DNA of 53,585 nucleotides from Deltaproteobacteria bacterium (lineage in GTDB: Bacteria; Desulfobacterota; Binatia; UBA9968): NCBI GenBank assembly GCA_009692615.1, contig SHYW01000026.1, positions 1-53,585 on the forward strand. Direction: 5' to 3'. Made by a program: the position numbers and the translations under genes. The notes beneath the pieces are model-generated. The model was not told where the DNA came from, did not search any database, and worked only from the letters and a program-made list of their open reading frames with translations. Below are positions 44,699 to 53,538 of this stretch, in pieces. How positions within the stretch are numbered: the stretch's first letter is position 1; every line of letters starts with the position of its first letter.

Positions 44699-46102
44699 TT
44701 ACGATAACCGATCGCCCCATTTGCCGATTATCCGTTCGCGCAATTCTCGGCTCGAGCGTGAGACCGCCGGAAATGTTTCTTTCCATTCGTAGGGCCGCGT
44801 CGCGTCGATGATGGCGCGCGAGTTGAAACCCTTTTGATCCTTGGGAATGATCGGGTCGAGCGGGCCGCTCCAGCAGCGGCGCAGGATTTCGATATCTTGG
44901 GCCGGATCGGAGCGCGTGCACACCGCCCACAGTACTTCGTTCAAGTTGGTCGGATCGATGTCGTCGTCAACGACGATGGTGTAGCGCCCTAAATAGGCCG
45001 CGGCGTGACACTCAGTCGCGATCAAACCGGCTTGGCGGGCGTGACCGGGATAGCGTTGCTTGATCGCCACGACCAGAAATAAATATGCCGCGCCGGCTGC
45101 CTCGTGGTACCAGACACCGCGCACGTCCGGCACACCGGCCGCTTCGAGATCGTCCCACACCAGCGCGGCTTTGAGCGGCGCGCGCCATTTGCGCGTGTAG
45201 CCCAACAGGATCGGATCGTTTCGGTGCATGACATTGTGAATTTTCACGATCGGCTCGGGCCGCGACGAGCTACCGTAGTAACCGGTCCATTCGCCGAACG
45301 GCCCTTCGATTTTTTCCGGGCCGAGCACGCATTCGCCTTCCAAAACAATTTCCGCCGTGGCGGGAATCGGCAGGCCGGTGAATTCGCCCTTGATCACATC
45401 CACCGGCTCGCCTTGAATGCCGCCGATGAAATCGTACTCGCACACACCGTAGGGCACCTCCAACGCGCCGGCGAGAAAGATCAACGGATCGTGGCCGACG
45501 GAAATCGCAACTTTGAACGGCTCGCCGCGGGCGAACGCCTTGTCGCGATGAATCCGCCCATGGCGCCCCGGCGCGATGTAAAAGCCGACGGTGTTCTCGT
45601 CGTGGATCATCACCCGCGCGGTGCCGAGGTTGGTCCAGCCCTCTTCGGGATCGTGGGTAATATTCACGCTGCCGGTGCCGATGTAGCGTCCGCCGTCCAG
45701 TTCGAACCAGCGCGGCGTCGGGAATTTTAGAATGTTGACATCCTTGCCGCGCTGAATATTTTCCAGCACCGGTCCGTCGCGCACGACACGCGGCGCGATA
45801 TGCTTCAAAGCTTTCGACCGCGTACGCCACTCGGAGACGAATTCCATCGATGACAAATCCTGCGGCATGCCCAGACTCAATCCGAGCCGCTTGGTCGATC
45901 CCAGCGAGTTGACCAGCACGCGATAGCCCTTGGGATAACCTTTGACCGAATCGAACAACACCGCCGGCGAGCTGCCGCGCTCGTTGACGATGTCGGCAAC
46001 CCCGCCGATTTCCAAATCCCAATCCGCGCCGTCGATGTGGCGGATCTCACCGAGCGCGTCGGCCTGCTTGAGCCAACTCCTCATGCCGTCTTCTTGTTTC
46101 AT
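44699..46102 (-). CDS. UbiD-family prenylated-FMN decarboxylase
   Basis: A 467-residue UbiD-type decarboxylase, which reversibly removes carboxyl groups from aromatic or alpha,beta-unsaturated acids using prenyl-FMN. Visible parts are LGSTKRLGLSLG near residue 65, PTPRWFELDGGRYIGTGSVN-like core, VGFYIAPGRHGRIHRD and the active-site strand EGPFGEWTGYYG with its conserved acidic residue. The UbiX flavin prenyltransferase is not in the window. GGTGAGG two bases before ATG 46102 gives a strong start. It is next to a dihydroxyphthalate-decarboxylase-like gene on the same strand, a pairing that points to an aromatic carboxylic acid pathway. Confidence 0.92.
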   Translation of the reverse strand: MKQEDGMRSWLKQADALGEIRHIDGADWDLEIGGVADIVNERGSSPAVLFDSVKGYPKGYRVLVNSLGSTKRLGLSLGMPQDLSSMEFVSEWRTRSKALKHIAPRVVRDGPVLENIQRGKDVNILKFPTPRWFELDGGRYIGTGSVNITHDPEEGWTNLGTARVMIHDENTVGFYIAPGRHGRIHRDKAFARGEPFKVAISVGHDPLIFLAGALEVPYGVCEYDFIGGIQGEPVDVIKGEFTGLPIPATAEIVLEGECVLGPEKIEGPFGEWTGYYGSSSRPEPIVKIHNVMHRNDPILLGYTRKWRAPLKAALVWDDLEAAGVPDVRGVWYHEAAGAAYLFLVVAIKQRYPGHARQAGLIATECHAAAYLGRYTIVVDDDIDPTNLNEVLWAVCTRSDPAQDIEILRRCWSGPLDPIIPKDQKGFNSRAIIDATRPYEWKETFPAVSRSSRELRERIIGKWGDRLS

Positions 46103-46194: not shown

Positions 46195-47334
46195 TTAAAA
46201 TCCCTTCTGCACTTCCCGCAGCAGCCGCAGATCCAGCACTTTTGCCAACGGCGTTTCTTCTTTCAAACCCATGCGCTCGGTCTCGCGCTTGAGCGCGTCG
46301 CGTATGCCCTTTTCATCCATGCCGCCGTCCTTGGAAAAAGCCGGCAACATCGACTTGTAAAGTTCGTCCGCCGCAGCCGTGTCCACGCTCCACTCTTTAG
46401 CGATGAATTGCATCACTTCACCCGGCCGCTGCTGAATGAAACGCAAACTCTTAATCGTCGCGCTGAGCATGCGCCGCACCAACTCCGGCCGCTCGCGAAT
46501 CATTTTGTCCGACGTACCCAAACCCGAAAGCGACTGCTCGACGTAGTCGCCGAAATACGCCAGCGTGCGAAAGCCCAACTGCTTCGCCATTGCATTGAAC
46601 GGCGGCGACAACACGCCGGCATCGATTGTACCGGCTTTCATAGCCGTGAGAATATTAGCAGTCGTGCCGGTGCCGAGAAAAGCCACATCGCGATCCGGCG
46701 TCAGGCCGTTCTTGCTGACTAAAAATCGCGCCAGCGTATCAGTCGACGAACCGATGGCGGTGATGCCGATGATCTTATTTTTTAGTTCGGCCATCGATTT
46801 GATTTCCGGTCGCGCCATCAACCAGAAGGACGGTTTGATCGTCAGGAAGCCGACGACTTTCACCGCCAACCCGCGCGCCGCCCCCGCCATCACCTGCGAC
46901 TGCGCGCCGGAGAAATCGATATCGCCGGTAGTCAGCGCCGTGACTTGAATCGTCGATGAGACCAGCACCATTTGAAGATCGATGCCTTCAGCCGTAAAGA
47001 TTCCCTTGTCGCGGCCAAGCGTGATCGGCAGATAATTCAAACTCTTCGCTGGATAAGCGAAGCGGACGCGGTCCGCGGCAAAGCTCACGTCAACGCCAAC
47101 CGAAAGCGTGAAAAGAAAGATTAAGGCTATCGCCCGTCGCGCGGCTCCCTTCCGAATTCCTCCCCCTCGACGGGGGAGGATAAAGGTGGGGGTGCCGCGC
47201 ACGCTATTGAAAATGTCGGGCACCCCTTCCTCTATCCTTCCCCGTTGAGGGGAAGGAAGTTCGGATTCGTGCTCAACCGAACCTCGCACTGGATGTGAGA
47301 TTACGCGCGTCATTCCATCCAACTCTCGCCTCAT
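46195..47334 (-). CDS. ABC transporter substrate-binding protein (NMT1-like), N terminus uncertain
   Basis: A binding protein of the NMT1 type, with a signal-like segment AIALIFLFTLSVGVDVSFAA, then FAYPAKSLNYLPITLG, VTALTTGDIDFSGAQ, ELKNKIIGITAIG and LSGLGTSDKMIRERP. ATG 47334 overlaps the previous gene's stop (ATGA), so coupling would start here. But the first 66 codons run through a pair of C/G-rich hairpins (47159-47256) before the signal peptide, which is abnormal. A later start (for example GTG near 47202) or a repeat inserted into the gene's 5' end is likely. It is one of three related binders within 6 kb. Confidence 0.8.
   Translation of the reverse strand: MRRELDGMTRVISHPVRGSVEHESELPSPQRGRIEEGVPDIFNSVRGTPTFILPRRGGGIRKGAARRAIALIFLFTLSVGVDVSFAADRVRFAYPAKSLNYLPITLGRDKGIFTAEGIDLQMVLVSSTIQVTALTTGDIDFSGAQSQVMAGAARGLAVKVVGFLTIKPSFWLMARPEIKSMAELKNKIIGITAIGSSTDTLARFLVSKNGLTPDRDVAFLGTGTTANILTAMKAGTIDAGVLSPPFNAMAKQLGFRTLAYFGDYVEQSLSGLGTSDKMIRERPELVRRMLSATIKSLRFIQQRPGEVMQFIAKEWSVDTAAADELYKSMLPAFSKDGGMDEKGIRDALKRETERMGLKEETPLAKVLDLRLLREVQKGF
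47159..47256. repeat. Pair of head-to-head C/G-rich hairpins
   Basis: A hairpin of CCTCCCCCTC...GGGGGAGG (47159-47179) and a hairpin of CCTTCCCCGTTGAGGGGAAGG type (47236-47256) face each other with the inverse pair GGATAAAGGTGGGGG / CCCCTTCCTCTATCC between. A third copy of this element is at 50126-50160. It lies inside the extended N-terminal frame of the binding-protein gene. Confidence 0.75.
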
Positions 47335-48308
47335 CGCCCTTTGATCCCCAACTCGCGTTGCGCGTCGCGCAGCGCGCCGAGATCGGCGACTTCGCTGGCG
47401 AGTATCGGGCGAGCGATCTTCGCTTCCTTCGCGGCACTCTCGATGACCAGCTGGAGACCGTCCTCCGGGATGCTGCCGTCGGCATTAAAGACCTTCACCA
47501 CCGAGTCGTACGACAGGGTGGCGTTCTCTTTGGACGTGCGTCCCCAGTCCATCAGTACTTCGATCGCGCCGTCGCGGTTGTTGCGCACAAAGCGGTTGGC
47601 TTTGATCAGCGCCTTGATGACTCTTTTAACCTCGTCCGGCTTTTCGTTTAGTTTTTTCAAATTTGCACCCAACCCGACGAAGGGAAACTTAAAGAGCTCG
47701 TAGGCACGGGCCAAAACTTGAAAACCCAGCTTTCGTCCTTCGACATCCGCCGGCGGGGAAATCACGATGACGTCGACGATGCCTTCCTTGAGAGCGAAAA
47801 ATCTCGCCTGGTCGGCGCCTAATGCGACTATCTTCATTTCCTTGTCCGGATCGACACCGGAATATTTGAGCATCATGCGCGCCGAGACATCGGCGGTCGC
47901 GCCGAAGGAGCTGACACCGAGAGTTTTACCTTTAAGCTCTCTGACGGATTTGAATTCCGAGCGCGCCACCAGCATCTGCGTCGGGCTATCGAGAAAGCTC
48001 GCGACGACGCGGATCGGCAAGCCGCGGATCGCCGCGCGCACCACCGAACCGAAGATCGTCGTGTAGTCTATATCCCCGGTCGCCAACGCGGTGATCGAAA
48101 CATTGGCATTCATCCGAATGACTTCGGGGTCGATGCCTTCCTCCTTGAAGAACCCTCGCTTGTAGGCAACCGCGGGAGTCAAAAACGCCGCGTCCAAACT
48201 CGAAACCGAGAGTCGCACCTTGTCAGCGGCTTCGCTGCCTGCGCAAAAGGGCATTACGCCAACAAACACAACAAGCAACTGTAACCTAACCAACGCCGTT
48301 CGGTTCAT
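47331..48308 (-). CDS. ABC transporter substrate-binding protein (NMT1-like)
   Basis: A 325-residue periplasmic binding protein. The signal peptide is about residues 1-27 (ALVRLQLLVVFVGVMPFCAG). It contains AYKRGFFKEEGIDPEVIRMN, TALATGDIDYTTIFGSVVRA, ELKGKTLGVSSFG and the RDAQRELGIKGR end, so it is a close paralogue of 42586-43539. An AGGAAT site lies upstream of ATG 48308. Its stop overlaps the start of the next binding-protein gene (ATGA), so the two are coupled. Confidence 0.9.
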   Translation of the reverse strand: MNRTALVRLQLLVVFVGVMPFCAGSEAADKVRLSVSSLDAAFLTPAVAYKRGFFKEEGIDPEVIRMNANVSITALATGDIDYTTIFGSVVRAAIRGLPIRVVASFLDSPTQMLVARSEFKSVRELKGKTLGVSSFGATADVSARMMLKYSGVDPDKEMKIVALGADQARFFALKEGIVDVIVISPPADVEGRKLGFQVLARAYELFKFPFVGLGANLKKLNEKPDEVKRVIKALIKANRFVRNNRDGAIEVLMDWGRTSKENATLSYDSVVKVFNADGSIPEDGLQLVIESAAKEAKIARPILASEVADLGALRDAQRELGIKGR

Positions 48309-48336
48309 TTCGTTTTGATTCCTGTGGGTCTAATTC

Positions 48337-48356
48337 CCCCGCAGCTTGCTGCGGGG
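48337..48356. repeat. Perfect 20-base hairpin
   Basis: CCCCGCAGCTTGCTGCGGGG has a 9-bp stem and a two-base loop. It lies in the 80-base gap between two binding-protein genes. There is no T-run, so it is not a classic terminator. Confidence 0.75.
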
Positions 48357-48388
48357 AAGTTCATTCCCTGTGCCTCTTGCCTTCCGCC

Positions 48389-49375
48389 TCACCGAATCAC
48401 TTTAGTCGCCCGCACCAGCACATTCGGCGGAATCGTCAGGCCGATCGCTTTCGCCGCTTTCAGATTGACGATGAACTCGAACCGCATCGGCTGCTCGACG
48501 GGAAGGTCTCGCGGTGTGCGACCTTTCAGAATCTTATCCACGTACACCGCCGCGCGCCGGTCCAGGTCCCTATTGTCCACGCCGTAGGTCATAAGCCCGC
48601 CGGCCTCCACGATTGCTGGCGAAGTGTACATCATCGGGAGCCGGTTCTTTACCGCGAAGTCTAAAATCTGTGTGCGGTGAGCACCCGCGATGGGGCCCGC
48701 CACCATGAAAAGGACTGCCTGAGCGCGCTCCTTCGTCGCGGCTCGGAATGCAGTCTCAATATCTTTGGGAATTAGTACGTCTAGGTATTGAAGCTTCACG
48801 CCGAACGCCTTTGCGGCGAGATTCACGTCTCTTAACAACTGCGCGATGTCCGTTTGGGTCGAAGACGTGAAGACGGCCACGCGGGAGAGGCTGGGAATGA
48901 TCTCTTTCAAAAGCTCCAATCGTTTTCCGTTTAGCTCCGGGGCAAGGGTTGACAGTCCAGTAATATTCCCGCCCGGATGCGCCAGACTGTCGACGAACCC
49001 GCTCCCAACAGGATCGCCAACCTGCGACATGACAATGGGAATCGTGACAGTTGCTTCCTTGGCGGTACGGGTTGCTGGCTCACCACCTGTGACGATGATG
49101 TCTACCTTGAGACGCACCAGCTCGTCCGCCAGCGCAGGCAGGCGATCGAATTTCCCCTCTGCGTATCGATACTCAACGATGATATTTTTCCCCTCTACGT
49201 ACCCAAGCTCGCGCAGACCCTGGCGGAATGCCCCGATGCGGTCCGCTTGAGTGGAAGGGGAGCCAGCATATAGTAATCCTATCCGGGGGATTTTCTTCGA
49301 TTGCTGCGCCTGGGCTGGAAAGGGATGCGCCAAAAGCATCGAGCAAAAACTTCGCCGAGTGATTTTTTTACTCAT
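48389..49375 (-). CDS. ABC transporter substrate-binding protein (ABC_sub_bind/TrpX-like)
   Basis: A 328-residue protein of the ABC_sub_bind family, a different binder type from the NMT1 genes. The leader has twin Arg before a hydrophobic stretch (KKITRRSFCSMLLAHPF), so Tat-like export is possible. Then come RIGLLYAGSPSTQADRIGAF, LRELGYVEGKNIIVEYRYAE, VDIIVTGGEPATRTAKEAT and IPIVMSQVGDPVGSGFVDSL. Ligands are usually amino acids or purine/aromatic compounds. It lies 80 bases upstream of the binder at 47331 on the same strand, separated by a hairpin, with a gap of about 208 bases to the molybdenum hydroxylase genes. Confidence 0.9.
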   Translation of the reverse strand: MSKKITRRSFCSMLLAHPFPAQAQQSKKIPRIGLLYAGSPSTQADRIGAFRQGLRELGYVEGKNIIVEYRYAEGKFDRLPALADELVRLKVDIIVTGGEPATRTAKEATVTIPIVMSQVGDPVGSGFVDSLAHPGGNITGLSTLAPELNGKRLELLKEIIPSLSRVAVFTSSTQTDIAQLLRDVNLAAKAFGVKLQYLDVLIPKDIETAFRAATKERAQAVLFMVAGPIAGAHRTQILDFAVKNRLPMMYTSPAIVEAGGLMTYGVDNRDLDRRAAVYVDKILKGRTPRDLPVEQPMRFEFIVNLKAAKAIGLTIPPNVLVRATKVIR

Positions 49376-49583: not shown

Positions 49584-50081
49584 TTACGGTCTTTCCCTTT
49601 TCGCCTGACTCTCCTGTGCCGCTTCGAGGATCGATTGCGCGATGGCGCCGTAGGCGCCGCAGCGGCAGATATTGCCGTTTAACCATTCGGCGATTTGCTC
49701 GCGCGACGGAGTCGGATTCTCCATCAACAACGCCTTCGCCGCCATGATCTGTCCCGGCGTGCAGTAGCCGCACTGGGCACCGATGTTGCGGATGAAGGCT
49801 TCCTGCAACGGGTCGAGTTGCTCACCTTGCGCGACACCTTCAATGGTCAGCACCGATTTGCCGTTGGCTTCGAACGCCAAATAATTGCACGCGCTTACCG
49901 CGCGATTATCGACCAACACCGTGCACGCGCCGCACACTTCCGACTCGCACGAGCGTTTCGTACCGATGAGCTGGAGGCGATTGCGAAGAAACTCAAGCAA
50001 GGTTTCCTCGATCGGCACTTCGCCGGACCAAGGTTTGCCGTTGACGCTCACCGATAAATTAAATGTACTTTGCGTTTTCAT
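49584..50081 (-). CDS. coxS: Molybdenum hydroxylase small subunit ([2Fe-2S], CoxS/XdhC-like)
   Basis: A 165-residue iron-sulfur subunit. Cluster 1 ligands are in CESEVCGACTVLVDNRAVSAC, cluster 2 in CGYCTPGQIMAA and NICRCGAYGAI. It passes electrons from the molybdenum centre to the FAD subunit. I chose ATG 50081, since NLSVSVNGKPW follows at the usual distance; a GTG at 50099 is also open. Gene order on the minus strand is L, M, S with repeats in between. Confidence 0.94.
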   Translation of the reverse strand: MKTQSTFNLSVSVNGKPWSGEVPIEETLLEFLRNRLQLIGTKRSCESEVCGACTVLVDNRAVSACNYLAFEANGKSVLTIEGVAQGEQLDPLQEAFIRNIGAQCGYCTPGQIMAAKALLMENPTPSREQIAEWLNGNICRCGAYGAIAQSILEAAQESQAKRERP

Positions 50082-50125
50082 ATGATCGACTTCGTCCACT
50101 TCGCTGACCTCTCCGATTCTTACCT

Positions 50126-50211: not shown

Positions 50212-51060
50212 CTAACTCGCCTGCTCCAGCGCATCGCCGAGCATGACTCCGGCCATGTACAATTTATAATCAGCGCCGCCCAGCAAGTCATCCACCGGCT
50301 GAAGCAAACCGCGTAAATACTTTTTCTCTTCCGCGACAATTCTCTTGGCCTCACTCAACGTCACGCCTTTAAGTTTGCCTTCGAGTTCAGTCAGCCTCAG
50401 CGCCTTCGGGCCAATACAGCCGACCGCAAGTCGCGCCTCGGCAATGATTCCCTCGGCGAATAGTGCCGCCGCCGCGACGCCGAGCGTCGGACGCTGATAG
50501 CGATGCAGCCGGAGATACGCACTGCTCATCCCGGCCGGCAGCGATGGGATCGTAACCTCCAACAACAGTTCGCCCGCTTCGAGCGCCGTGGCGTACATGT
50601 CAACGAAAAACTCATCGAGCGCGAGCCGCCGTTCGCCTTTCGCATTGCCGATCGTCACTGACGCGTCATGAATCAGCAGCACGGTCCCAGGATCGGAGTG
50701 CGGATCGTTGAACGCAAGATTGCCGCCGAGCGTGCCCTGATTTCTGACGCGAATGTTCGCCACTTGAGATTCGGCGTAAGCCAACGACGCCGCGTGCTCG
50801 TGCGCAAGCGCGCTGGTCGCCAGCGCATGATGCGTCACGCAGGCGCCAATACGTAGCGAATCTCCGATCAGCTCAACGCGATGAAGTCGTGGAATCTGCT
50901 TAACGTCAATCAACACTTCTGCATCGATCAAACCGTTGCGCATCAGCAACAATAATTCGGCGCCGCCAGCGTAGAATGTTGCTTTGTCGCCGTAGTCCGC
51001 AAGCGCTTGAGAAGCTTCTTGAACCGTAGTCGGCTGTATTAATTGTAACGGTTGCAGCAT
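50212..51060 (-). CDS. coxM: Molybdenum hydroxylase FAD-binding subunit (CoxM-like)
   Basis: A 282-residue FAD subunit. The N-terminal YAGGAELLLLMRNG is the first flavin contact, and the GGNLAFNDPHSDPGTVLL stretch carries the second typical flavin-binding loop. CO_deh_flav_C features (for example YLRLHRYQRPTLGVAAAAL) follow. It links the iron-sulfur small subunit with an external acceptor. The ATG at 51060 lacks a clear ribosome site. A 151-base repeat-rich gap separates it from the S subunit. Confidence 0.94.
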   Translation of the reverse strand: MLQPLQLIQPTTVQEASQALADYGDKATFYAGGAELLLLMRNGLIDAEVLIDVKQIPRLHRVELIGDSLRIGACVTHHALATSALAHEHAASLAYAESQVANIRVRNQGTLGGNLAFNDPHSDPGTVLLIHDASVTIGNAKGERRLALDEFFVDMYATALEAGELLLEVTIPSLPAGMSSAYLRLHRYQRPTLGVAAAALFAEGIIAEARLAVGCIGPKALRLTELEGKLKGVTLSEAKRIVAEEKKYLRGLLQPVDDLLGGADYKLYMAGVMLGDALEQAS

Positions 51061-51129
51061 GATTTTTTCTTTAGGTGATCGGAGAATCGAATCAAAGCAT
51101 CAGCATTCCTGCTTCCTCTCCCTCTGAGT

Positions 51130-51152
51130 GTAGGGGCGACCGGCGGTCGCCC
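51130..51152. repeat. REP-like palindrome, inner stem ACCG
   Basis: GTAG, GGGCGACCG, one base, CGGTCGCCC; identical to 40256-40278 over 23 bases. It lies between the L and M subunit genes. A further CCCTC/GAGGG hairpin follows at about 51165-51195. Confidence 0.85.
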
Positions 51153-51255
51153 TTCTGCGCGCCCTCACCCTTCCCTCTCCCAAAGGGCGAGGGTAAGATC
51201 TGATTCGACTGCGTCACCGGCTCATCTCATTTGTCGAACTCGAAACCCGAAACTC

Positions 51256-53538
51256 TTATATTTTTTCCATCGCCCGGAGAATCTTTTCCGGTGTTATCGG
51301 CAGCGAGCGCACGCGCACGCCGAGAGCGTCGAAGATCGCGTTGCCGATGGCCGGACCGACGGTGACGATGGAGGTCTGCGCCATGCCCTTGGAACCGAAC
51401 GGTCCCGGGCCGTCGCCCTTTTCCAACATCGACGAATAGAATAGCTCGGGCAAATCTTTCATCACCGGCAGACGATATTGAAAGGGATCGCCATTTTGAA
51501 ATTGCCCGTCTTGATAAATGGTCTCCTCGAACAGCGCGTGGCCGAAGCCCATCACCGCGCCGCCGTCGACCTGCGCCTTGGCCGAGGGATAGTGAATCGT
51601 CTTGCCGGCGTCGGCGATCACCGCGTAGCCCAAAATGCGCAGCTCGCCGGTGTCGCGGTTGACTTCCACTTCCACCGCCGCGCCGCTTGGCGCCCAGTGG
51701 TCCATGCCGGCGAAGGCCGAGTCCTTCACCATCGGCGCCACGCTATGATAGCCGACCGCTTTCAAGACCACGCTGTTGCCGACCACGCGGATGATTTCGT
51801 TGATCGAGAAACTCGACTCGCCCCAGCACAGCCGGCCGTCGACCATGCGCCAGTCCTTGGCTTCACCGCCTTTGACTTGCGACGCTAAACCGAGCAAATC
51901 CGCCTGCAAGGTTTTGCACGCGTTGTGCACCGCGTTGCCCATCTGCATGGTGGTGCGCTGGGCGCTGACGCCAGCGAAGGGCAAATGCACCGCGGTGTCC
52001 GGCGTGCGCACGCGGATCTGGCTTTGCGGCAAATTTAAAGTCTGCGAGGCCACAACGCTGAATAAATTATGCGTCCCCTGGCCGATCTCCGGCGCGTTGT
52101 GTTGAATGGTGAGAACACCACGAGCGTCCATGGTCACCAGCGCGTAGGCGCGCCCGCCGCCCTGAGAGCCATGGCGCAAGCTCAACGCCATGCCGCGGCC
52201 GCGCGCCCAACGTGGACCGCTCGTACTCGATGCGGAATTCGCTTTGCCGTCCCAGCCGATGCCGGCGAGCGCATCGCTCATGAGATCGAGATAGTCGGTG
52301 TCCATGCGCGGCGTACCGGTGCAGACGAAATCACCGCGCAGCAAGACATTCTTCTTGCGAAACACGTAGGGATCGATGCCGAGCTGGCGCGCCACGCTGT
52401 CCATGGCACACTCGATGCCCCAGGTGGTCTGAATTTTTCCCGTGGCGCGGGTGTGGCCGGCGGGAACTTTGTTGGTGTAAACGCATTTGCCGCGGATGCG
52501 CAGGTGCGGGATGCGGTAACAACCCCAAGCCGAGATAACCGAATTGTGCACCGCGGTGAGCCCGCCGGTGGTGTAAGCGCCAGTGTCGACGACTAAATCG
52601 ACATCGAGGGCAGTGATTGTGCCGTCGGCTTTGACGCCGATCTTGGCTTTGAAGACTTCGGCGTGGCGCGAGTTTTGGCGAAAACTTTCTTCCGCCGACG
52701 CGATCAAGCGCACCGGCCGGCCGAGCTTGCGCGAAAGAAACAGCGCGGCGAAATGCGCCGGCGTCGGAATCTTCGAGCCGAATCCGCCGCCGACATAGGG
52801 CACACGCACGCGAACTTTGTCCGGCTCTAGCCCAAGAAAATGCGCGAACTCGGCGGCGTCGCGGGTCGGCGAGCTGGTCGGCAACCAGACATTGGCTTCG
52901 CCGTTGACATACTGCGCCAGGAAGCCGCCCACCGGTTCCATCGGATGATGGAACATCGACGGCGATGAATAACTCTCTTCGAAAATCCGCTCCGCTTGCT
53001 TGAACCCTTCGGCGACATCGCCCCAGACCAGACTATCTTCGGCCAAAAGATTGCTGCCGTGCTCCTCATGCAAGATCGGCGCGCCCGGTTCGAGCGCCGC
53101 CACCGCGTCGAACACCGGCGCCAGCGGCTCATAGTCGACTTGAAAAAGTTTCACCGCGCGCTCGGCGGTGCGCCGATCCTCAGCGACAACCAGCGCCACC
53201 AGATCGCCGTCGTAACGAACTTTCTTGGTGGCGACAAAATCCTGATCGTCGACGCCCTTGAGATGCTCATGGGGCGCCAGCTTCAGCCGCGGATCGACGC
53301 CATCGAGATGATCGCGGTCGACAACCCCCAAGACGCCCGGCAGCTTCAACGCCTCGGAGGCATCGATGCAAAGAATCCGGGCGTGCGAGTACGGACTCAT
53401 CAACGCCGCGCCAAAAGCCGTGCCCAGCAGATCCGGCAGATCGTCGATATACACCGCCCGCCCCGTGACCTTGTCACGCATGTCGATGCGGGGGGCCAAA
53501 TCAATTTTCGATTTTAGATTTTCGATTTTGGATTCCAT
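51256..53538 (-). CDS. coxL: Molybdenum hydroxylase large subunit (xanthine dehydrogenase/CoxL family)
   Basis: A 760-residue molybdopterin-binding subunit. Ald_Xan_dh_C N-domain segments (RIDMRDKVTGRAVYIDDLPD, then DGDLVALVVAEDRRTAERAV) and Mo-binding segments (RVPYVGGGFGSKIP, GRGMALSLRHGSQGGGRAYA, INAPEIGQGTHNLF-like) are present. The C-terminal conserved loop reads PFGSKGMAQTSIVTVG. There Gln721 stands where relatives have the catalytic Glu of GxGE. It lacks the AYRC motif of CO dehydrogenase, so it is a xanthine/aromatic-type hydroxylase. The ATG at 53538 follows a GGTG-like site; the first residues (MESKIENLKSKI) come from an A/T-rich repeat. L is first in the cluster, then M and S. Confidence 0.94.
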   Translation of the reverse strand: MESKIENLKSKIDLAPRIDMRDKVTGRAVYIDDLPDLLGTAFGAALMSPYSHARILCIDASEALKLPGVLGVVDRDHLDGVDPRLKLAPHEHLKGVDDQDFVATKKVRYDGDLVALVVAEDRRTAERAVKLFQVDYEPLAPVFDAVAALEPGAPILHEEHGSNLLAEDSLVWGDVAEGFKQAERIFEESYSSPSMFHHPMEPVGGFLAQYVNGEANVWLPTSSPTRDAAEFAHFLGLEPDKVRVRVPYVGGGFGSKIPTPAHFAALFLSRKLGRPVRLIASAEESFRQNSRHAEVFKAKIGVKADGTITALDVDLVVDTGAYTTGGLTAVHNSVISAWGCYRIPHLRIRGKCVYTNKVPAGHTRATGKIQTTWGIECAMDSVARQLGIDPYVFRKKNVLLRGDFVCTGTPRMDTDYLDLMSDALAGIGWDGKANSASSTSGPRWARGRGMALSLRHGSQGGGRAYALVTMDARGVLTIQHNAPEIGQGTHNLFSVVASQTLNLPQSQIRVRTPDTAVHLPFAGVSAQRTTMQMGNAVHNACKTLQADLLGLASQVKGGEAKDWRMVDGRLCWGESSFSINEIIRVVGNSVVLKAVGYHSVAPMVKDSAFAGMDHWAPSGAAVEVEVNRDTGELRILGYAVIADAGKTIHYPSAKAQVDGGAVMGFGHALFEETIYQDGQFQNGDPFQYRLPVMKDLPELFYSSMLEKGDGPGPFGSKGMAQTSIVTVGPAIGNAIFDALGVRVRSLPITPEKILRAMEKI

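Follow-up and report, generated by a model that had tools for sequence, protein, structure and literature searches.

The locus described here raises the question of what a large subunit of the molybdenum hydroxylase family does when its catalytic glutamate, regarded as essential in the family, has been replaced by glutamine. The window, by which we mean the whole 53,585-nucleotide stretch of DNA that was analysed, holds an uninterrupted ORF with an ATG start that encodes a 760-residue large subunit of the xanthine-oxidase family, here called LQ. The Glu of the C-terminal GxKGxGE loop is absent from LQ, and Gln721 stands in its place with a codon that sits within GPFGSKGMAQTS. The preceding position, 720, is Ala where Gly is usual, as is also the case in some Glu-type sequences.

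51256–53538, minus strand: LQ, molybdopterin-binding large subunit with Gln721 replacing the catalytic Glu (ORF, Pfam and fold match)
51376–51378, minus strand: Gln721 codon, CAG, at the position of the catalytic Glu (E726 of HCR; alignments)

LQ is a member of the xanthine oxidase family by descent and fold. The Pfam domains Ald_Xan_dh_C, MoCoBD_1 and MoCoBD_2 were each found above the gathering cut-off, and phmmer alignments to solved relatives placed Glu opposite residue 721 in each of the eight distinct sequences shown aligned, which represent seven proteins: HCR (1rm6, E726), QOR (1t3q, E743) and Kdh (7dqx, E748), with Glu numbers counted off the alignments, as well as 5y6q, 8uem, nicotinate dehydrogenase (3hrd_B) and PaoC (5g5g, with its mutant entry 5g5h). 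The claim of a previous sequence-only reading, that CAG at 51378-51376 puts Gln in the place of the family's catalytic Glu, is thus borne out, as is its statement that the gene is complete. Among solved chains the best sequence match is the alpha subunit of HCR (1rm6_A; TIGR03194), which has the same domains but differs in that its residues E726, Q214 and S523 correspond to Gln, Ser and Gln in LQ. Every NCBIfam model scored below its cut-off, so that no named enzyme type of NCBIfam covers LQ; the best match was TIGR03194 (4-hydroxybenzoyl-CoA reductase alpha) with 400.9 bits where 994.55 are required, and NF043082 (xanthine dehydrogenase XdhA) and TIGR02416 (aerobic CO dehydrogenase large subunit) gave 398.5 bits (cut-off 780) and 187.4 bits (cut-off 991.15), respectively. 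An AlphaFold model of LQ built with 14 sequences (mean pLDDT 79.3, pTM 0.80) has the family fold of the xanthine-oxidase large subunit, matching 7dqx_A with Z 37.0 and rmsd 2.8 over 709 aligned residues and 1rm6_D with Z 36.7 and rmsd 3.0 over 728; the cofactor loops 249-254, 362-367 and 525-527 have pLDDT under 50 in this model. Its catalytic residue, by contrast, places LQ outside what defines a functional molybdenum hydroxylase.

Whether Gln721 is peculiar to one contig was addressed by a survey of relatives. Matches to LQ at E <= 1e-142 are present in 10 of the 25 genomes of the window's family, its own included. Besides LQ itself, 13 full-length sequences from nine other genomes, 44-96% identical to it, carry Gln at this position, and one further sequence carries Asn, for a total of 15 non-Glu rows (14 Gln with the window counted, and one Asn); the Gln codons are CAG or CAA in the five that were inspected. 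These 15 rows group together in a single clade (SH-aLRT 100) in a 66-row tree, inferred by a quick method with the catalytic columns left out. When the set was extended to 115 rows, all 100 rows that lie outside the clade had Glu and none of the 15 within it did; a single change suffices on the 115-row tree, and none of 500 label shuffles was as low. The larger set consists of the 66 rows, 44 rows from 64 further loci and 5 chosen plasmid records. The 44 were picked without regard to motif, from lists ranked by similarity to LQ or to LE (a Glu-type large subunit that neighbours LQ in several relatives), and the survey is therefore no random sample of the family. Ten hits with a query span of <600 residues and identical copies were dropped from the first set, and 7 short hits and 20 duplicates from the added one.

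The Asn row is a weaker basal paralog (G009:C98:12051-14234, L051:9016-11259; loop GSRGVGNSS) whose tandem neighbour is a large subunit of the Gln type. Both trees carry a long-branch warning that includes this row, and since it is a long branch in both, its basal place is less sure and is the weakest part of the tree. In G015, LQ (L045:9161-11431) has 11 residues missing in frame immediately ahead of the MSQTS stretch of the catalytic loop.

Within the window's own genome (G000), each of the 24 other full-length large subunits keeps Glu, a count that excludes a split copy (C38) and the fragments found on C45, C71 and C130 (13090-13218). The 25 full-length xanthine-oxidase-family large subunits in 5.0 Mb, the window's included, amount to a large expansion, and in G012 more than 70 large-subunit candidates were seen at first look. 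A contig scan with the LQ protein, which reveals close relatives only, returned seven loci, which correspond to seven genomes of the family (G003, G004, G005, G007, G012, G015 and G019). At a wider range, LQ was matched in two genomes of a 395-genome phylum sample, one of them the window's own, and a search of the class at E <= 1e-160 found matches in 18 of 148 genomes; non-Glu rows occur in 10 of these 18 (own included), all of the window's family. Among the best 25 of 1172 plasmid records the top identity was 35.9%, all 1172 were under 60%, and the five plasmid large subunits chosen for different organisms all carry Glu. As far as these sequences tell, Gln is fixed throughout a clade down to about 44-48% identity.

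This distribution bears directly on the possibility that Gln721 is a sequencing error, or that the gene is in early decay. Large paralog families do shed members, and the G015 copy without part of its loop could be seen in that light. Against such an explanation stand the 13 further full-length Gln rows and the Asn row from nine other genomes, their intact ORFs and dN/dS values of about 0.1, and we consider it very improbable. A GAG misread as CAG, named beforehand as a finding that would undo the observation, is excluded by the 13 other Gln rows, and the alignment with homologues that had been proposed as a check showed a clade with conserved Gln that holds all 14 Gln rows. Error and decay were both rejected on the clade-wide conservation together with the low dN/dS.

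Pairwise dN/dS for LQ was 0.083 between the window and G004, 0.097 between the window and G001, and 0.117 between G001 and G015; the most distant pair, G001 and G007, gave 0.208 with a dS that is probably saturated. The corresponding values for LE were 0.108 (G004 and G001), 0.112 (G001 and G015) and 0.213 (G001 and G007), and the evolutionary rates of LE and LQ are similar. The LQ of the window and its G004 copy are 96% identical (dS 0.28), whereas the adjacent M genes, which encode the FAD-binding subunit, are only 76% identical (dS 1.48; window 50212-53538 compared with L042), a contrast suggesting that only LQ underwent recombination or gene conversion.

Conservation of the cofactor pocket was assessed over segments of our own choice from known motifs, in comparison with random block sets. 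In the LQ subclade, identity was 0.700 in the rest of the protein and 0.879 in the pocket, a pocket value reached by 0 of 5000 block sets. The figures were 0.852 and 0.671 for LE with three LE relatives (3 of 5000 sets as high), 0.860 and 0.731 for another Glu-type set of ten rows (52 of 5000), and 0.639 and 0.543 for the deep non-Glu rows (183 of 5000); conservation of the catalytic loop is weaker in the deeper clade members, at 0.525. The pocket of LQ is as conserved as that of Glu-bearing clades, which speaks against relaxed decay. Conservation of this kind would indicate ligand or cofactor binding, and may reflect turnover or mere cofactor binding alike. Since Gln is fixed in the whole lineage and the pocket is strongly conserved, Gln721 is a real and maintained variant, neither a broken gene nor a sequencing error. 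The suggestion of the sequence-only reading that the locus shows a changed chemistry rather than decay accordingly holds in its second half (clade-wide Gln, dN/dS of about 0.08-0.12 in the closer pairs, conserved pocket), while a changed chemistry is plausible, with a catalytically silent subunit almost equally probable.

The substitution is accompanied by further changes around the cofactor.

51958–51960, minus strand: Gln527, at a position that is Ser in all 95 Glu-type rows (S523 of HCR; alignment)
52438–52455, minus strand: active-site loop HTRATG, residues 362-367, where others have the AYR/AFRGFG type, with Arg364 kept (alignment; role of the loop from passages of PMC8305194)
52771–52791, minus strand: molybdopterin-binding loop GGGFGSK, kept (alignment)
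52873–52875, minus strand: Ser222 at the position of HCR Gln214; Ser, Ala or Asp in the ten-row subclade, Gln in 73 of 95 Glu-type rows (alignment)

Q721, Q527, F521, H362 and T363 are invariant in the ten-row subclade to which the window belongs. Because Gln527 replaces an otherwise invariant Ser, cofactor binding of LQ may be altered. Phe521 takes the place of an Asp found in 96% of rows elsewhere, while the molybdopterin loops GGGFGSK and GQG are retained together with Arg364, with one GGGH variant in G012:C12. Loss of Gln214 proved weak as a hallmark of the clade, as Gln is also absent there from 22 of 95 Glu-type rows (Lys in 10, Ala in 8, Ser in 2 and Gly in 2). Ten Glu-type large subunits of the window's own genome (L012-L014, L017-L020 and three more) carry Lys at this position and make up a separate branch. 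Five deeper rows keep both Gln214 and the AFR loop and lack the Glu, and from this combination it seems that Glu was lost first and that the pocket was rebuilt later.

A remodelled pocket might also contain a replacement for the missing base. LQ would then be an ordinary C-H hydroxylase whose proton acceptor is the substrate or another residue, for example His362. All members of the ten-row subclade have His362, where Ala is the commonest residue elsewhere (53 of 95 Glu-type rows), and the Kdh loop equivalent to LQ 362-367 lies about 4 A from Mo (PMC8305194); a QM/MM model of Kdh in the same source has the Mo-OH proton going first to the substrate. Clade-specific acids are present too (E167, D168, E188, E214, D471 and D613), all outside the defined pocket segments; a different Glu standing where the base would be, the second finding named beforehand as undoing the observation, is conceivable among them. 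However, position 362 is Ala in the five deeper non-Glu rows, so that His362 cannot explain the whole clade, residues 362-367 belong to the poorly predicted loops of the model, and a Glu-to-Ala mutant of Kdh was dead even with substrate assistance (PMC8305194). We hold a substitute base to be unlikely.

The remaining explanations depend on the company that LQ keeps in the genome. Downstream of it on the same strand follow M and then S, so that the FAD and twice [2Fe-2S] partner subunits are present in the window, and both partners are intact as had been stated from the sequence.

50212–51060, minus strand: M, FAD-binding subunit, intact (Pfam FAD_binding_5 and CO_deh_flav_C)
49584–50099, minus strand: S, [2Fe-2S] subunit with 8 cysteines (Pfam Fer2 and Fer2_2; cysteine count)
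46195–49375, minus strand: three substrate-binding proteins, two of NMT1 type and one ABC_sub_bind, same strand as LQ
44702–46102, minus strand: UbiD-type decarboxylase, same strand as LQ; UbiD is near LQ in some other loci too

The spacer between LQ and M (51061-51255) contains a palindrome-like repeat (GGGCGACCGCCGGTCGCCC) and a CTCGCCCTTTGGGAGAGGGAAGGGTGAGGG element. An amidohydrolase gene is also found near LQ in the window. UbiD decarboxylases occur near LQ in the window, G001, G012:C147 and G012:C276 by Pfam and in G015 and G012:C12 by BLAST. Cupin proteins are encoded nearby in G001 and in G012, and several loci also have binding proteins of the NMT1 type. From these neighbouring gene families we infer an aromatic or heteroaromatic acid pathway as the probable setting of the LQ loci.

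In G004, G001, G015, G007 and G012:C147, LE is encoded directly upstream of LQ on the same strand, and it is also upstream in a fragment from G003, where LQ stops before residue 721. LE (for example L042:7333-9612) belongs to the same family as LQ, at about 36-38% identity, and is encoded in one row of genes with M and/or S, but it keeps the Glu (GPYGAKGMGEGG) and the AFRGFG loop and falls into another clade. Both M and S follow LQ in G001, G015 and G012:C147, S only in G007, and the contig of G004 ends after M; there is thus at most one M/S set after LQ in the LE-bearing loci. This arrangement raises a substantial possibility that LQ is a pseudoenzyme paired with LE in an asymmetric complex served by a single M/S set, in which it would stabilise, regulate or orient the active half. 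The similar rates of LE and LQ fit this proposal. The engineered E1265Q variant of mouse AOX1 (PMC2671166) was inactive with all substrates tested and held 60% Moco against 70% in the wild type; it has the same Glu-to-Gln exchange as LQ with no other change of the pocket, and its inactivity makes a silent subunit a simple alternative for LQ. Sulfolobus tokodaii GAOR2 and GAOR3, in the account given in PMC4726530, have one M/S pair in common and different L subunits, which is a precedent for LE and LQ sharing M/S, and GAOR2 has a wide L-L contact. GAOR2 keeps its catalytic Glu672, unlike LQ, and GAOR3 is likely a monomer in the same account, so L-L dimerisation is not general in the family.

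LE is, however, not a constant companion. It is not a neighbour of LQ in G019, in G005 (where about 1.3 kb upstream is visible), in G012:C276 or in G012:C12, that is, in four of the nine other core loci, nor is it adjacent in the deep-row loci G017 and G009:C55; the upstream side of G009:C98 is hidden by a contig end. An obligate LE-LQ pair as a rule is thus unsupported. G012:C12 and G017 have M and S after LQ despite the lack of an adjacent LE, which suggests that LQ can be wired for electron transfer alone. BLAST with the M and S of the window detected neither gene in the retrieved portions of G019:C44, G009:C55 and G009:C98, and S but no M in G007 and G012:C276. Relatives of LE likewise occur with no LQ beside them, in G012:C276:46785 with its own M and S and in G019:C29 and G019:C41 without either.

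The window contig ends 47 bp upstream of LQ, which puts its upstream neighbour, including any LE, out of view. These 47 bp look unlike the corresponding intergenic stretch of G004 by eye, and the blastn match between the two stops 7 bases past the LQ start, so that we make no claim of an LE beyond the contig end. An ortholog of LE was not found in G000 either, the best matches there being 52-53% identical. These observations, and a pocket constraint in LQ that is not relaxed, count against the silent-subunit proposal.

We lean, at a little short of an even chance, towards LQ as a Moco-bearing and base-less, yet maintained and remodelled subunit that works on the FAD/Fe-S platform with non-canonical chemistry. 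This preference over a silent partner is founded on the maintained pocket and on the LQ-M-S loci without LE. LQ would most likely still bind the molybdopterin cofactor and dock on the M/S platform (FAD and twice [2Fe-2S]); in several loci this platform may also serve the LE encoded immediately upstream. As Gln is unable to accept the Mo-OH proton, the base-assisted hydroxylation of the textbooks is not expected of LQ, and the inactivity of AOX1 E1265Q (PMC2671166) and of the Kdh Glu-to-Ala mutant (PMC8305194) leads to the same expectation. The remodelled pocket could instead handle a related compound, probably of aromatic or heteroaromatic acid type, in a step where the substrate or some other group accepts the proton, or where Mo-OH is not the nucleophile. 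The weaker loop constraint in the deep rows, the loop loss in G015 and the loci without M and/or S speak against this preferred explanation.

In the excerpts of the open-licence literature that were covered, no description of a natural Gln variant or of tandem Glu/Gln large subunits was found, and absence from print is not claimed. There is a fair possibility, which we put forward tentatively, that the clade is an old natural lineage of Mo hydroxylase-like enzymes working without the catalytic Glu, which may use a chemistry that begins otherwise than with base-assisted Mo-OH attack, on a platform shared with LE. A Gln lineage with a rebuilt pocket under selection would mean either that the Mo centre carries out another kind of reaction or that the protein is a pseudosubunit of a molybdenum enzyme.
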